A stretch of 35,250 nucleotides of DNA from Plectonema cf. radiosum LEGE 06105 (lineage in GTDB: Bacteria > Cyanobacteriota > Cyanobacteriia > Cyanobacteriales > Nostocaceae), in contig NZ_JADEWL010000069.1 in NCBI RefSeq assembly GCF_015207665.1, positions 1-35,250 of the forward strand. The letters are read 5' to 3'. The notes beneath the pieces are model-generated. The model made no database searches, had not been told where the DNA came from, and saw nothing but the letters and a program-made list of their open reading frames with translations. How positions within the stretch are numbered: the stretch's first letter is position 1; every line of letters begins with the position of its first letter. Position numbers and translations under genes: made by a program. Below are positions 3,157 to 7,782 of the stretch, one piece after another.

Positions 3157-3554
3157 TGAAGGTGAGATAAATAAATTAAATTTATAGCAAACATTAATTA
3201 AGTAAAATTGTGTGATTGGAATCACTGCTATATCTGTATTAAATCACAACAATTAACAAAATATTTTTTTCATCAAAATTTATAACGATTAAGCTATTTA
3301 GCCTATGTAAGTATATATAAATCTCAACATATTCTTTGATGAAATTAATGATTAGTGAAGGGAACTTTTCAACTATATTTGTAATCTAGTTAGTAGAATC
3401 GTTAATAAAGCTTTGTACTAATAATTGATAGCAGCAAGCTTTATTAATAGCAGCTACAGCTATTCTTATGCTGTAGAAATATTTTGTGATTTTTAAATAA
3501 ATATCAAGTTCGCGTCTATCTAAGTAAATGATAGACATATTTTGGAGTACAAAA
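3157..3554. promoter_or_regulatory. Divergent intergenic region with two hairpin/operator-like dyads upstream of the modification cassette
   Basis: This AT-rich spacer lies between the divergent hydrolase and cassette genes. It contains a 7-bp hairpin, CTACAGC (3454-3460) with GCTGTAG (3470-3476) and a 9-base loop. It also contains a perfect 7-bp dyad, GTCTATC (3514-3520) N9 GATAGAC (3530-3536). The second dyad sits 7 bases before the GGAG Shine-Dalgarno (3544-3547) of the first cassette gene. It could be a repressor operator or a leader stem; the sequence alone cannot decide. No confident -35/-10 pair was found. Confidence 0.45.
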
Positions 3555-4361
3555 ATGAGTAGTAATGCGTCTCTTTTGATTGAAGACACGAACTTATCTT
3601 ACGCTTGGCGTGATGTATTTTTACATTTTTTCAACAATCGTTGTACAGAAATTTCACCGTTAGTTATCACGTTAACTGGGTTTAATAATGGTCTTCCAAA
3701 TCAAGATGCAGCTACGATCACAGCCTTAGATCAATGTCTTAAGCAACTCGGTGAATTAGAAGTAGATAAAGTAGCTCAAACAATCTTTCCTACCTCTTAC
3801 TGGCAACTGTCAAAGGATAATCGACAAGAGTTTTTTAACAACTACATTGATAACATTGATAACATCAAAGCTGCGGTTAAGCCTAAGCACCCTTGTGAGT
3901 ATTTTGAAAGACTTATTGCTTTCGGTTCAGGACCTCACAATGGTAATCAACTTGAACATATTATTTCTGAGTATAATTCTGTTTACAATTCGCATACTAG
4001 TAAGCGCTCTAGAGTGAGAAGAAGTATGTTTCAAGCATCTATTTTTGATCCAAAGCGAGACCATAAAGGCGACTGTATATACCTTCCCTTTCCTTGTTTA
4101 GGACATATAAGTTTTGTGCCAAACAAAAAAGATGGAACCTTGATTCTTAATGCTTTCTACGCAACTCAAAAGATATTGGAAAAAGGATACGGTAATTACC
4201 TTGGTCTTTGTCGGTTAGGTCATTTTATGGCTAGTGAGATGGGACTGAAATTTGAGCGAATGAACTGTTTTGTCGGTGTAGCAAAGATGGAAACAGCTAA
4301 ATATAAACTTCAAACTTTGGTAGAAAAGGTTCGTCAAACAACACCGTCAGAAATGAATTGA
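3555..4361 (+). CDS. Divergent thymidylate-synthase-like protein (putative pyrimidine C5-modifying enzyme)
   Basis: A 268-residue protein whose second half aligns by eye to the catalytic core of ThyA. SRVRRSMFQASIFDP (152-166) matches the phosphate-binding SRR region. FPCLGHISF (179-187) carries the catalytic cysteine (C181). GNYLGLCRLGHFMA (213-226) matches NIASYALLVHMMA without gaps, including the Asn (N214) that in ThyA recognises uracil. The YQRS(C)D motif and the later His/Tyr pair that hold the dUMP phosphate, folate and sugar are not conserved. The substrate is therefore probably not plain dUMP, or the fold is reused. The N-terminal 110 residues are not recognisable. Start: ATG 3555 with GGAG 7 bases upstream; an ATG frame from 3528 lacks a ribosome site. 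It is the first gene of a three-gene cassette with 4489-5622 and 5622-6530. The expected role is making a C5-substituted pyrimidine nucleotide; this is inference. Confidence 0.65.
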   Translation: MSSNASLLIEDTNLSYAWRDVFLHFFNNRCTEISPLVITLTGFNNGLPNQDAATITALDQCLKQLGELEVDKVAQTIFPTSYWQLSKDNRQEFFNNYIDNIDNIKAAVKPKHPCEYFERLIAFGSGPHNGNQLEHIISEYNSVYNSHTSKRSRVRRSMFQASIFDPKRDHKGDCIYLPFPCLGHISFVPNKKDGTLILNAFYATQKILEKGYGNYLGLCRLGHFMASEMGLKFERMNCFVGVAKMETAKYKLQTLVEKVRQTTPSEMN

Positions 4362-4444
4362 TAAGGTCAAGTATTCCGTTGGTTAAAAAAAATCATCTTA
4401 CAGGTAAAAACAATTGCGATCAATTACCATGACAGTTAAGCTTG

Positions 4445-4476
4445 TGAGCATTCATCTTATATAGAGTAGATGCTCA
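4445..4476. promoter_or_regulatory. Inverted repeat before the second cassette gene
   Basis: TGAGCAT (4445-4451) and ATGCTCA (4470-4476) form a perfect 7-bp inverted repeat around an 18-base AT-rich spacer that includes a TATATAGA stretch. It ends 12 bases before the ATG at 4489, where no Shine-Dalgarno is visible. It could be an operator over an internal promoter in the 127-base gap, or an RNA hairpin controlling expression of the second and third genes. Confidence 0.35.
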
Positions 4477-4488
4477 TCGGTTTGCAAT

Positions 4489-5622
4489 ATGGCAATTAAA
4501 CCTCAGAAACCTGTTAAAGAAAAAGACGGACAGAATTTACAGCTTAGTTTAGAACTTGGTAAATATGGGGAAAAGCCTAAGTTTACTTCTACACCTACGA
4601 TAATTTCATCACGTCTACCCGCTAAGCCTACGGTTGTTTTTGATACTTACTGGCGGTTTGCTGCTGAACGACAAAAGATTTTTTTCAACAAGTTACAAAA
4701 TACACCGATGCCTTGGACTGATGACTCTACTCTCTCAGTTTACAAATTTACCAATGCTTATCGAGCGAGCGATCGCACTAGCCAATATTTGATTCGTCGG
4801 GTTATCTACCGCTCGGATTTACCAAGTTCTAATAAAGAGGTTTTCTTTAGAATTATGCTGTTCAAGATTTTTAACAAAATTGAAACTTGGCAGCTTCTAG
4901 AAGAAAAGCTGGGTAATATTATTCATGCTGAATATTCTTTTGAACGCTATGACAAGGTTCTTACAGAAGCTATGGAATCGGGTAAAAGAATATATTCAGC
5001 AGCATACATTATGCCTTCAGGTGGTAAAACTCTGGGATACACCACGAAGCACCGCAATCATTTGAAGTTAATTGAAAAAATGATGTGTGATGAACTGCCA
5101 AAACAACTTGCAGATACACCTTCAATGCAGCAAGGTTTCGAGTTATTGCTAGCTTATCCAACTATTGGGAATTTTTTGGCATACCAGTTTATTACCGATA
5201 TTAATTATAGCGAGATTACCAACTTTAACGAAATGGAATTTGTAATTCCAGGTCCTGGTGCGCTTGATGGTATCCGCAAATGTTTTGCTGATTTGGGTGG
5301 TCTTAAGGAAACAGAAATTATTAAGTATATGGCTGATAACCAACAGTTTGAATTCGAGCGTTTAGGACTTGAATTTAAATCTCTTTGGGGTCGTCCTCTA
5401 AAACTTATTGACTGTCAAAATCTCTTTTGCGAGGTTGATAAATACGCACGAGTTAATCATCCAGAAATCTCGGGAATTTCTGGTCGAACTCGTATTAAAC
5501 AGAAATACTCAGCCAATAAACAGTCGTTTGATTGTTGGTATCCCCCAAAGTGGGAAATTAACCAATTTATTCAAGCAAATAAATCTTTATTAAACAAGAA
5601 TTCAAATCAAAGGAGTGGATAA
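4489..5622 (+). CDS. Putative DNA base hypermodification protein (5-hmdU DNA kinase helical-domain family)
   Basis: A 377-residue protein with the pattern I associate with the 5-hmdU DNA kinase helical domain / alpha-glutamyl-putrescinyl-thymine pyrophosphorylase superfamily, described by computational work on phage thymine hypermodification. Hallmarks in order: YWRFAAERQKIFF (54-66), PWTDDSTLSVYKFTNAYRAS (75-94), RTSQYLIRRVIY (96-107), FRIMLFKIFNKIETW (120-134), LLAYPTIGNFLAYQF (220-234, like a helix-hairpin-helix of DNA glycosylases), FVIPGPGALDGIRKCF (251-266), DCQNLFCEVDKY (308-319) and YPPKW (351-355). No Walker A kinase loop is present, so it is probably not itself an ATP-dependent kinase; a base-flipping or DNA-base-modifying role is the inference. 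It is coupled to the next gene: its TAA (5620-5622) overlaps that gene's ATG (5622-5624). It contains one HIP1 site near 4769. Family membership is fairly sure; the reaction is unknown. Confidence 0.75.
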   Translation: MAIKPQKPVKEKDGQNLQLSLELGKYGEKPKFTSTPTIISSRLPAKPTVVFDTYWRFAAERQKIFFNKLQNTPMPWTDDSTLSVYKFTNAYRASDRTSQYLIRRVIYRSDLPSSNKEVFFRIMLFKIFNKIETWQLLEEKLGNIIHAEYSFERYDKVLTEAMESGKRIYSAAYIMPSGGKTLGYTTKHRNHLKLIEKMMCDELPKQLADTPSMQQGFELLLAYPTIGNFLAYQFITDINYSEITNFNEMEFVIPGPGALDGIRKCFADLGGLKETEIIKYMADNQQFEFERLGLEFKSLWGRPLKLIDCQNLFCEVDKYARVNHPEISGISGRTRIKQKYSANKQSFDCWYPPKWEINQFIQANKSLLNKNSNQRSG

Positions 5623-6530
5623 TGGACTTTCGTAATTATCAAGAAAAAGCCCTGCAAACCGACCAAGTTCCTAGTGGAACCCAAAACGATAAAATTGTAC
5701 CTTTACTTGGTTTAGTAGGTGAAGCTGGTTCCCTGCTAACGGAGTATAAGAAACACCTCCGGGATGGAGACTCGTACAAATTATTTAATAAAGGTATTGC
5801 AGAAGAATTAGGAGATTTGCTTTGGTATGTAGCCAATGTCGCCAGCAAGTTTGACCTTGATTTGCAAGAAATTGCCGAAGATAATTTGAAAAAGTGTCTC
5901 GACCGTTGGAGTTGGAAAAATTCATTAGGGAATGGCACTCAAACTAAAGTTTGCTTCTTCGACAAAAACTTTCCTGAAAACGAGCGTTTACCACGTCAGT
6001 TTGAAGTTGAGATTATTGAAGTCAGCGAAAAAAATTCTGTGAAATTGGAAGCACTTATCGATGGACAAAGAGTTGAATTTGGTTCGGAGCTAACCGATAA
6101 TTCTTACAAAGGTGATGGGTATCGTTATCATGATGTTTTCCATCTTTCCTACCTAGCTGTTTTAGGTTGGTCACCAGTAATTCGTAAACTTCTTAAACGC
6201 AAAAGAAGAAGCGATTCCCTAATTGACGAGGTTGAAGACGGTGGTCGCGCTGGGGTGATTGAGGAAGGTATCTCAGCACTTGTATTCAGCTATGCAGAAA
6301 ATCACGACTTCTTAGAAGGAGTTACTGAGATAGATTACGAACTGCTAAAAACTATAAAAAATATGACCATTAATTTAGAAGTGTCTCAATGTTCGCTGGG
6401 TGAGTGGGAGAAAGCAATTCTGGTAGGTTATGAAGTTTGGCGACAAGTCAATAAAAATAAGGGAGGAAAGGTAGTAGTTAATATTGATACTCAATCTATG
6501 ACTTATCAAGTTAAATCAAAGTTTTGCTGA
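5622..6530 (+). CDS. MazG-like nucleotide pyrophosphohydrolase with C-terminal second domain
   Basis: A 302-residue protein. Residues 28-97 form a MazG-type all-alpha NTP pyrophosphohydrolase domain: LLGLVGEAGSLLTEYKKHLR (28-47), then EELGDLLWYVAN (61-72), which supplies the ExxD half of the metal site. In the first half the usual second Glu is Ser37. A long C-terminal part includes YRYHDVFHLSYLAVLGWSP (168-186) and DEVEDGGRAGVIEEGISALV (202-221), which may be a second, degenerate MazG-like helical unit. It would hydrolyse (d)NTPs or modified NTPs to monophosphates plus pyrophosphate. Start: ATG 5622 preceded by AGGAG (5611-5615), 6 bases away and overlapping the previous stop, so the two genes are translationally coupled. 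Placed with a TS-like and a hypermodification-family protein, it probably shapes the nucleotide pool or removes a normal nucleotide. The MazG call is confident; the role is inferred. Confidence 0.8.
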   Translation: MDFRNYQEKALQTDQVPSGTQNDKIVPLLGLVGEAGSLLTEYKKHLRDGDSYKLFNKGIAEELGDLLWYVANVASKFDLDLQEIAEDNLKKCLDRWSWKNSLGNGTQTKVCFFDKNFPENERLPRQFEVEIIEVSEKNSVKLEALIDGQRVEFGSELTDNSYKGDGYRYHDVFHLSYLAVLGWSPVIRKLLKRKRRSDSLIDEVEDGGRAGVIEEGISALVFSYAENHDFLEGVTEIDYELLKTIKNMTINLEVSQCSLGEWEKAILVGYEVWRQVNKNKGGKVVVNIDTQSMTYQVKSKFC

Positions 6531-6597
6531 GATTTTTTATATAATTTTTCCTCTTCAAAGCATTGGAAAATTGAAGATAAAAATATGATTTTAGTGC

Positions 6598-6683
6598 TTG
6601 AAACCGTACTACACAAACTTTGAACCGTATGGTGCGTGGACTACATATAATCAATCATTTTACTTTTGTAGCTACGGTTTCAA
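6598..6683. terminator. Long inverted repeat between convergent genes (possible bidirectional terminator)
   Basis: TTGAAACCGTA (6598-6608) is repeated inverted as TACGGTTTCAA (6673-6683), an 11-bp stem with a 64-base loop. A third near-copy, TTTGAACCGTA, lies inside the loop from about 6619. It falls exactly between the end of the cassette (6530) and the end of the opposite-strand xisI (6714). A terminator role is plausible, but the long loop and lack of a T tract make it uncertain. It could also be a degenerate repeat element. Confidence 0.35.
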
Positions 6684-6713
6684 TTACTAATTTAAGTTTT
6701 AATATTTTTAAAT

Positions 6714-7049
6714 CTAAGCTACACCATATCCCGTATAAGGATGCTTATAAGGTGGCTGCAATCCCAGCACAATATCTTCTTTTTCAACTCCTAAATCTAA
6801 GAGTTCTTGCGCTAAATCAACATCCGTCATATTCTGCTGAATCCAGATTTTACCATCTTTAATATCAAAATGCATCATGCTATGATAAACCCGCTTCAAA
6901 CCATTCCAACCTACATACATCAACTGATAATGGTCGTGTATTGTATCGAAAATTAATTCTTTTTCTACATCTTCATGCTTCGGTTTTGAACTACCGTGTT
7001 TAGTTAAAATCGTTTGAATTGATTGCCGAAAATGCTCTAGATTTGCCAT
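6714..7049 (-). CDS. xisI: XisI family protein (fdxN element excision controlling factor)
   Basis: A 111-residue protein matching XisI: the family N-terminus (YxxxIQxIL-like), the DTxxDHYQLMYVGWNG core and the FDIKDGKIWIQQNMTDVDLAQELLDLGVEKEDIVLGLQPP block near the C-terminus. In Anabaena, XisI works with XisH to allow XisF recombinase to excise the fdxN element during heterocyst differentiation. Many cyanobacteria carry extra xisH/xisI pairs of unknown role. Here no xisH is visible. The gene upstream on the same strand (7127-7495) encodes a DUF559 nuclease-like protein instead, and a palindromic repeat lies between the two. The start is ATG 7049. An orphan or re-paired accessory gene is most likely. 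No fdxN element or recombinase gene is in the window. Confidence 0.9.
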   Translation of the reverse strand: MANLEHFRQSIQTILTKHGSSKPKHEDVEKELIFDTIHDHYQLMYVGWNGLKRVYHSMMHFDIKDGKIWIQQNMTDVDLAQELLDLGVEKEDIVLGLQPPYKHPYTGYGVA

Positions 7050-7060
7050 ATTATTCTTTT

Positions 7061-7098
7061 CCCCCTCTCCTTAATAAGGAGAGGGGTTAGGGGTGAGG
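7061..7098. repeat. Dispersed palindromic repeat, CCCCTCTCCTTA family, copy 1
   Basis: A perfect odd palindrome, CCCCTCTCCTTA (7062-7073), A, TAAGGAGAGGGG (7075-7086), is followed by TTAGGGGTGAGG. The whole is the reverse complement of copies at 7622-7660 and 7736-7774. It sits between the DUF559 gene and xisI on the minus strand, where it could form a 12-bp RNA stem that limits read-through. The pattern is familiar as a dispersed repeat in filamentous cyanobacteria. Confidence 0.8.
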
Positions 7099-7126
7099 TT
7101 TTCCCTGTGAATTCTAACAAATAATC

Positions 7127-7495
7127 TTAACCTCTTAACTCTCTCACCTTCAAGGCAATACTTTCTAAAACACCATCTAAATTGTCGTATACATCATTAT
7201 TCGTAAATCTAATAAATTTAATTCCGAATGATTTAATATAACTTTGTCTTTCTCGATCGTATTCAACAGCACCTTCCATAAAATGACTTTCACCATCAAT
7301 TTCTATGGCTAGCTTTAATTTAGGACTGTAAAAATCAATCACAAATTTATCTACACTATATTGTCTGCGAAATTTACAATCTTCTATTTGTCTATTTCTT
7401 ATTTTGTCCCAAATTATTTTTTCTGCTTTTACTATGTTTTGACGTAATTTACGCCGTTTTTCTTTTTCGGATTTTTTGTTATAAAGTTGAGTCAT
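7127..7495 (-). CDS. DUF559 domain protein, PD-(D/E)XK / Vsr-like endonuclease
   Basis: A 122-residue protein of the DUF559 family, related to very-short-patch-repair endonucleases. It opens with the basic LRQNIVKAEKIIWDKIRNRQ stretch. The KFRRQYSVDKFVIDFYSPKLKLAIEIDGESH block carries the D...ExD nuclease core, and KSFGIKFIRFTNNDVYDNLDGVL ends the fold. The length is typical. It should be a small soluble DNA nuclease; the substrate is unknown. The ATG at 7495 lies 6 bases from an 18-bp stem-loop (7501-7547) that would occupy the leader and ribosome-binding region. It is upstream of xisI on the same strand, separated by 77 bases containing a palindromic repeat. XisH, the usual partner of XisI, is also thought to be nuclease-like, so this pairing may be more than chance (inference). 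Confidence 0.88.
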   Translation of the reverse strand: MTQLYNKKSEKEKRRKLRQNIVKAEKIIWDKIRNRQIEDCKFRRQYSVDKFVIDFYSPKLKLAIEIDGESHFMEGAVEYDRERQSYIKSFGIKFIRFTNNDVYDNLDGVLESIALKVRELRG

Positions 7496-7547: not shown

Positions 7548-7621
7548 CACTAATTCGGTTTTGGCATCCGTTAAATTACCTCACCCCCTAACGATTCTGC
7601 TCTCCTTGCAACATCGCTCGA

Positions 7622-7774
7622 AACCTCACCCCCAACCCCTCTCCTTATTAAGGAGAGGGGAGATTACTTCACCTTTGTTTTTCAAAAGAGAGGGGAGCTT
7701 ACTTACCCCTACTCTCTCCTCACTACATTGCTTGAAACCTCACCCCCAACCCCTCTCCTTAACAAGGAGAGGGG
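7622..7774. repeat. Two direct copies of the CCCCTCTCCTT palindromic repeat
   Basis: AACCTCACCCCCAA followed by a 25-base palindrome (7636-7660), and again with palindrome 7750-7774. The arms are CCCCTCTCC / GGAGAGGGG with slightly different centres. Upstream of each copy is a similar CATCGCTCG or CATTGCTTG lead-in, so about 114 bases were duplicated in tandem. A degenerate AGAGAGGGGAG lies between them (about 7689). The second copy is 8 bases past the metH stop and may form the 3' end of the metH transcript, although no T tract follows. Confidence 0.8.
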
Positions 7775-7782
7775 AGTTTAAG

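Follow-up and report, generated by a model that had tools for sequence, protein, structure and literature searches.

Hypermodified thymine serves phages as a shield. The phage gene clusters for thymidine hypermodification (Yuavirus and Kuttervirus type) bring together a PF18748 kinase, a PF18723 HMUDK_hel protein, a thymidylate synthase (TS), NMAD and radical SAM. On the bacterial side, 5-hydroxymethyluracil kinase and thymidylate synthase are among the domains newly validated against phage in Escherichia coli, and MazG, MazG-C, aGPT-Pplase and NMAD are among the predicted defence domains (PMC13092281). For the prediction that several of these domains act in defence, the same source refers to Burroughs et al. 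2015, on nucleotide-centric conflict systems.

Here, we propose that three adjacent genes of Plectonema cf. radiosum LEGE 06105 form the enzyme core of a mobile, modular bacterial conflict system making or installing a pyrimidine altered at C5, most likely to stop phage replication, a reading to which we give slightly better than an even chance. The genes lie within the window, by which we mean the whole stretch of DNA analysed (35,250 nucleotides; contig NZ_JADEWL010000069.1, positions 1 to 35,250 of the forward strand). As judged from sequence, the trio belongs together and yet is the enzyme half of a larger operon, the front half of which is absent from the window copy.

The three proteins of the cassette

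The trio, as open reading frames (ORFs) with protein lengths in amino acids (aa), and its coupling are:

3555 to 4361, + strand: ORF1, TS-fold protein, 268 aa (sequence search, AlphaFold model, alignments)
4489 to 5622, + strand: ORF2, stand-alone HMUDK_hel (PF18723) protein, 377 aa (Pfam, AlphaFold model)
5622 to 6530, + strand: ORF3, MazG + MazG_C protein, 302 aa (Pfam)
5610 to 5624, + strand: ORF2/ORF3 coupling, an AAGGAG ribosome-binding site with stop/start overlap (sequence)

A first-pass annotation, made from the letters alone, had called these three genes and their domains on a shared + strand, with ORF2 and ORF3 coupled, and Pfam, the fold model and a one-base overlap (TAATG, 5620-5624, with AAGGAG ahead at 5610-5615) confirm it.

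ORF1 was listed as a frame running from 3528 to 4361, but the preferable start is the ATG at 3555, with GGAG ahead of it at 3544-3547 and with the same start position in close relatives. No Pfam family matches ORF1, and its score against the NCBIfam thymidylate synthase model (E=1.6e-6, 27.7 bits) falls well under the model cutoff of 174.55. Its AlphaFold model, built from a 35-sequence alignment (predicted local distance difference test, pLDDT, 88.4), is matched in Foldseek by TS-fold structures with E down to 2e-9, including the CMP hydroxymethylase MilA, thymidylate synthases and the phage dCMP hydroxylase AfhB. In addition, hhalign aligns it to PF00303-type sequences (88%, E 2.8e-6), and MilA is the top PDB sequence match of a six-sequence profile of the family (E=0.014).

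Mapping of residues by alignment to TS-type sequences and E. coli ThyA places C181 (codon 4095-4097) at the catalytic Cys (ThyA Cys146) and N214 (codon 4194-4196) at the base-selecting Asn (ThyA Asn177), an identity that presumably points to a uracil base; both are invariant in 35 of 35 aligned TS-like rows. The phosphate-binding Arg (R166) is Ala in ORF1 and the Asp169 equivalent is Lys. The 33 HMUDK_hel-linked rows carry A, G or P at the R166 position, R being found in L096 and L097 only, and the Glu58 and Asp169 equivalents vary across the alignment. ORF1 is a TS-fold protein, yet no ordinary thymidylate synthase: going by these residues, Cys chemistry with Asn-type base selection seems plausible, and binding of a normal 5'-monophosphate doubtful. 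At the two Burkholderiales loci that keep the Arg (L096:6941-9705 and L097:6907-9654), MazG_C, the TS-like protein and a uracil-DNA-glycosylase-like protein (named by eye) stand in a row, possibly an ancestral arrangement or a separate system.

PF18723 covers residues 49-328 of the 377 in ORF2 (E=1.6e-114; 382.5 bits against a curated cutoff of 25; profile positions 2-280 of 281) and no other family matches, so that the earlier placing of this gene in the hypermodification superfamily holds by a wide margin over the cutoff. A reading of the gene as a kinase, on the other hand, is not supported. The P-loop domain of a 5-hydroxymethyldeoxyuridine (5-hmdU) DNA kinase, whether PF18748 or thymidylate-kinase-like, is missing from ORF2, which has PF18723 alone; the kinase is separate or fused elsewhere. 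A PF18748 search of the window's genome returned zero matches, as it did for the control genomes, so that the domain need not be absent from the genome. A thymidylate-kinase-like domain is fused ahead of HMUDK_hel in 3 of the 3 long forms scanned (L067, L075, L083), and the HMUDK_hel proteins of L084-L086, outside the domain scan, are equally long.

The ORF2 model (pLDDT 81.7, below 50 over the first 41 residues) finds as its top Foldseek matches PUGT, a phage glycinyltransferase of 5-phosphomethyldeoxyuridine (5-PmdU), and then HhH-GPD DNA glycosylases. The two kinds make up 38 of the best 50 of 227 matches (E up to 10), and none of the 227 has E at 0.001 or below. On this model, ORF2 is read as a base-flipping transferase or reader. 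On an Acinetobacter plasmid (L108:7977-8929), HMUDK_hel is divided over two adjoining annotated ORFs, perhaps a decayed or a two-part form. ORF3 matches PF03819 MazG (2.9e-5) and PF18722 MazG_C (3.1e-80).

A larger operon across phyla and on mobile elements

Among 386 genomes of the phylum, HMUDK_hel occurs in 17, MazG_C in 12 (as fragments only in one, G385) and the TS-like gene in 7. Every TS-like genome is also an HMUDK_hel genome (7 of 7), with the two matches 114-275 bp apart. With the window's own genome set aside, the hypergeometric P is 1.8e-9 for the TS-like gene with HMUDK_hel (6 of 6 genomes) and 5e-15 for MazG_C with HMUDK_hel (10 of 11), both values ignoring shared ancestry. The suspected link between the three genes is borne out by this strong co-occurrence, and the families are not found to meet rarely. 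Seven of the other 10 HMUDK_hel genomes carry HMUDK_hel, DUF1643 and MazG_C consecutively; in G087 a contig ends beside HMUDK_hel and DUF1643, the G155 match sits on a contig of 3.8 kb, and G382 has neither DUF1643 nor MazG_C. A second cassette in the window's own genome (contig C74, L005:679-3566, near the contig end) likewise consists of HMUDK_hel, DUF1643 and MazG_C with no TS-like gene, its HMUDK_hel being 53% and its MazG_C protein 66% identical to those of the window. A motif likeness had suggested DUF1643 as a relative of uracil-DNA-glycosylase, which neither hhalign (0.8%) nor a PDB search supported. In G002 (L032:8492-12183), about 2.8 kb with two transposase-like ORFs (by eye) interrupts the TS-like gene and leaves the HMUDK_hel and MazG_C genes that follow it intact, which amounts to a naturally occurring knock-out of the TS-like step.

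A search of named genomes with the TS-like alignment yielded 40 loci, which span cyanobacteria, Gastranaerophilales, Bacteroidota, Acidobacteria, Rubrobacter, Chloroflexi (Dehalococcoidia), Planctomycetota, Deltaproteobacteria and relatives, Burkholderiales and one further bacterium. HMUDK_hel is present at 38 (truncated in L058), MazG_C at 28, holo-acyl-carrier-protein synthase (AcpS) at 17, DUF1643 at 7 and radical SAM at 5. Where 2 kb or more of upstream sequence is available (35 loci), 32 loci have XRE and ImmA/IrrE genes and 28 have a small first gene resembling an acyl carrier protein (ACP); the hidden Markov model seeds behind these counts came partly from the same contigs, and near-duplicate loci (L061/L069, L070/L071, L089-L091, L030/L066, L031/L063) inflate them. 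In the absence of a Pfam assignment, ribD, metH, transposase, type I restriction and similar names come from inspection by eye. The trio is hence not the stand-alone system it had first appeared to be.

The ACP-like protein has no Pfam match in 3 of 3 scanned; two plasmid records label it 'acyl carrier protein', others 'hypothetical protein'. One aligned Ser occurs in all 31 aligned sequences, the surrounding DS motif being lost in several Bacteroidota. This recurrent partner is the newest feature of the system. In the literature searched, no description was found of an ACP-like gene and a holo-ACP synthase beside a DNA-modification family; the operon may already be described in Burroughs et al. 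2015 or other earlier prediction papers, and the novelty, part of which may thus be in print, rests mainly on the ACP/AcpS and XRE/ImmA modules. One specific reading, which we consider unlikely, is that of a carrier-dependent weapon: the ACP-like protein and AcpS would load an acyl or aminoacyl group, HMUDK_hel would transfer it to a C5-activated deoxyuridine under ImmA/XRE control, and phage DNA would be poisoned. If true, this would be antiviral pyrimidine hypermodification with ACP chemistry.

The enzyme half is itself modular. The 12 loci without MazG_C comprise 5 with radical SAM and 5 with a second TS (PF00303 in L076, L082 and L083; by alignment in L085 and L086), with neither in L058 and L088. 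A dCTP-deaminase-like gene is added in L080 and L085, and at seven Bacteroidota loci the MazG_C protein is 187-217 aa long, with no room for a MazG domain (L074 sequence inspected). Several of these genes bear on the reading that the enzymes drain or corrupt pyrimidine deoxynucleoside triphosphates (dNTPs) during infection and that DNA is never modified. Depletion of dNTPs is how dCTP-deaminase and dGTPase defence acts, and free nucleotides are the substrates of MazG, of the dCTP-deaminase-like enzymes and of the second TS alike; HMUDK_hel, though, found at 38 of the 40 loci, is a DNA-modification family with a weak resemblance to base-flipping enzymes, and neither ACP nor AcpS has an evident role in depletion. 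We regard an attack on the dNTP pool as improbable.

Plasmid carriage points to mobility of the favoured system. The TS-like gene is found in 6 of 72,556 plasmid records, of which 5 are typed conjugative and two are weak matches (24-26% identity); among 50,697 phage records none matches it at E 1e-5. HMUDK_hel is matched by 477 phage and 22 plasmid records. Sets of TS, HMUDK_hel and MazG_C-type genes occur on conjugative plasmids from Nostoc, Allocoleopsis, Rhizobium and Sinorhizobium, and two of these sets adjoin SIR2 or ABC-three-component genes. Plasmid neighbours of the TS-like and HMUDK_hel genes are, in different records, SIR2, AAA and an N-6 methylase; ABC-three-component and VapBC; and a caspase-family gene. 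In Parabacteroides they are TIR, Nmad2 and radical SAM genes, and the other plasmid loci inspected have no such neighbours. In Gloeothece pP742404 (L099:114-4660), a gene annotated as a CBASS cGAMP-activated phospholipase overlaps HMUDK_hel, with MazG_C-type, TIR and Nmad2 genes following, which looks like a signalling-type variant.

In IMG/VR, a relative of the TS-like gene is found on 3 contigs and HMUDK_hel on 19; one 22.9-kb contig classed as viral (L151/L131) holds a complete operon of ACP, XRE, ImmA, TS, a 564-aa HMUDK_hel protein and radical SAM. Phage PAC9 clusters TS, the P-loop 5-hmdU kinase (PF18748), HMUDK_hel and an NMAD protein, with kinase and HMUDK_hel as adjacent separate genes. 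In Brevibacterium phage LuckyBarnes (L113:1846-5861), HMUDK_hel, thymidylate synthase and two glycosyltransferase genes lie in a row, perhaps a glycosylated-thymine pathway.

The window copy and its site

The features at the site of insertion are:

3161 to 7053, no strand: strain-specific segment (comparison with genus relatives)
6714 to 7049, - strand: XisI gene, right-hand edge of the strain-specific segment (Pfam; in G388 too, there without the cassette)
7127 to 7495, - strand: DUF559/MTES_1575 endonuclease-like gene, outside the segment and 597 bp from the trio (Pfam)

The cassette is absent at this site in 5 of the 6 genus relatives compared. In these five, the left flank stops at 3160-3173 and the right flank at 7035-7058 (6721 in G388), and the gap holds 0.2-0.75 kb of other sequence. 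Counting the strain's own genome, all 8 genus genomes have the flanking hydrolase and 7 of the 8 have the metH-like gene. A dispersed repeat of about 40 bp lies on both sides of the DUF559 gene (7062-7100, 7621-7660 and 7735-7777) and is scattered at the corresponding site in relatives.

The first-pass annotation had seen no restriction enzyme beside the trio, which the adjoining DUF559/MTES_1575 and XisI genes correct. A rival reading has the cassette altering host DNA to give it an epigenetic or protective mark, which a restriction partner encoded elsewhere would recognise. In keeping with such self-marking, the endonuclease-like DUF559 gene lies nearby, enzymes of these types are believed to protect the DNA of phages (PMC6449724), and type I restriction genes stand by the Gastranaerophilales copies (by eye), 3 of 100 flank ORFs matching REase_I models. 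The DUF559 gene region, however, is aligned in 4 of the 6 relatives (G305, G386, G387, G390), these four lacking the cassette; across the 40 loci, the genes that carry labels include no recurrent nuclease, the unlabelled flank genes being only partly identified; and XRE/ImmA control suggests induced use. Self-marking is, in our judgement, decidedly unlikely.

Ordinary nucleotide housekeeping (thymidylate supply or house-cleaning), a role that TS and MazG families have elsewhere, is very improbable for this cassette, given a ThyX-family gene in the same genome, the loss of the Arg that binds the dUMP phosphate, and a patchy, partly plasmid-borne distribution with absence at the site in most relatives.

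The upstream ACP-like, XRE and ImmA/IrrE genes of the full operon are lacking here. Trees of TS and HMUDK_hel, with weak support at several deep nodes, place the window copy among cyanobacterial copies whose relatives have the full operon, and because of this position loss of the front half is the simplest history, although in the close relatives L070/L071 the sequence breaks off on the upstream side. Since carrier and regulator genes are missing in the strain, its copy would be a reduced, possibly failing version. Could it be a relic altogether, a core left after loss of those genes and now undergoing deletion? No remnant of ACP, XRE or ImmA lies upstream, and the genome's other copy could take over the function. 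In the sixth genus relative, G389, TS is kept and a deletion has removed most of HMUDK_hel and MazG_C, from the start of the former to the end of the latter; the nearest relative has TS and a 107-aa ORF joining the same two ends. On the other side, all three window ORFs are open, family-invariant residues are retained, and HMUDK_hel and MazG_C look constrained (ratio of nonsynonymous to synonymous substitution, dN/dS, 0.14 and 0.20, both against L070; TS 0.35 against L058). Two of the codon comparisons extend into the stop, and some reference proteins of minus-strand genes are short of their initial Met, with no effect on the matches. We take a relic to be possible but rather unlikely. Compared with L058 (Richelia SL_2_1), the left genes are 97-98%, XisI 99.7% and the metH-like gene 93.8% identical, and TS only 76.6%, a divergence that may reflect allele replacement or fast change within the cassette.

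Proposed mechanism and comparison with known systems

What, then, might the complete operon do? Upon infection or DNA damage, the ImmA/IrrE protease would relieve the XRE repressor and so turn the enzymes on. The TS-fold enzyme would use its Cys to activate C5 of a deoxyuridine residue, and HMUDK_hel, as a base-flipping transferase of glycosylase fold rather than a kinase, would add a substituent to a hydroxymethyl or phosphomethyl group. A kinase domain, fused in some relatives, may prepare that group, with radical SAM sometimes involved, and the acyl-carrier-like protein of the operon might serve as the substituent's dedicated carrier. Hydrolysis of residual abnormal dNTPs by MazG/MazG_C would protect the host itself. 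Of this picture, the genes with their domains and folds, the co-occurrence, the operon, its carriage on plasmids and the strain-specific segment are observed, and induction, substrate, product and antiviral effect are inferred. The operon is made of the same kinds of parts as phage thymine alteration, and bacteria may therefore carry an anti-phage weapon. The putative defence role suggested in the first pass has become more likely through the validated TS and 5-hmdU kinase domains (PMC13092281).

Several results weigh against an antiviral C5-modifying core. With regard to the enzymes, Pfam finds no kinase domain among the three window proteins, and a TS-like protein without the phosphate-binding Arg of a real TS may not act on dUMP. 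The fold matches of ORF2 are weak (best E 0.09-0.1, probability 0.92-0.93, TM score 0.34-0.43), and a sequence-profile search of PDB, which returned 7 aquaporin sequences that we attribute to chance, showed no link to PUGT or a glycosylase. In ORF3, one ligand of the MazG metal site, which we take to be ExxE...ExxD, is changed: the first motif is ExxS and ExxD is kept (ExxS also in the second genomic copy; ExxE in L030, L079 and L099). A phage Det7 gene beside HMUDK_hel, annotated as MazG-like, has no Pfam match at 0.01. With regard to control and carrier, there is no ACP, XRE, ImmA or AcpS match within the window, nor one to DUF1643; ACP and AcpS were sought in the window and ImmA/IrrE in the whole genome, where the sole match (Peptidase_M78) lies on contig C303 and is of a different, XRE-fused type, the protein beginning with an XRE-like stretch (by eye).

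The ties to defence are subject to similar objections. The accessible text of PMC13092281 does not assign the validated domains to one system and states no mechanism, and two relatives had no blastn match in 20,395 E. coli records, leaving no tie to those domains. Against PADLOC (2023), the three proteins have no family match even with E allowed to reach 1. Among flank genes (100 of 166 ORFs from 34 of the 40 loci, the near-duplicates L063, L066, L069, L071, L090 and L091 omitted), 244 PADLOC families were matched, against 106 in controls (100 of 119 ORFs from 16 arbitrary stretches), figures in which many models overlap and per-locus hits are not resolved; the control contained a type I-D/III CRISPR locus, which blurs the comparison.

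If the proposal is true, thymine-hypermodification chemistry is used by bacteria too, by way of a regulated, plasmid-borne operon. The 40 loci are candidates for testing, the window copy itself being trimmed.

How does the system compare with those already described? The DefensePredictor domains belong to the same families and are bacterial, and the validated ones are anti-phage in E. coli; the accessible text names no ACP, XRE or ImmA partner, and there is no sequence link to the present proteins (PMC13092281). MilA and AfhB, a TS-fold CMP hydroxymethylase and a phage dCMP hydroxylase, are among the closest solved folds to ORF1, at 14-16% identity, and differ in that ORF1 lacks the R166 equivalent. 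The best fold match of ORF2 is gp46/PUGT, the 5-PmdU glycinyltransferase of a Pseudomonas phage (PDB 8z2n), at 8-9% identity, with weak scores and no profile-level sequence match. Finally, the phage clusters and the bacterial loci share a TS-fold gene and HMUDK_hel, to which some variants add a kinase or radical SAM. The window trio differs in having no kinase domain, and the bacterial loci, unlike the phage clusters, are chromosomal or plasmid-borne and in most cases add XRE/ImmA and ACP/AcpS.

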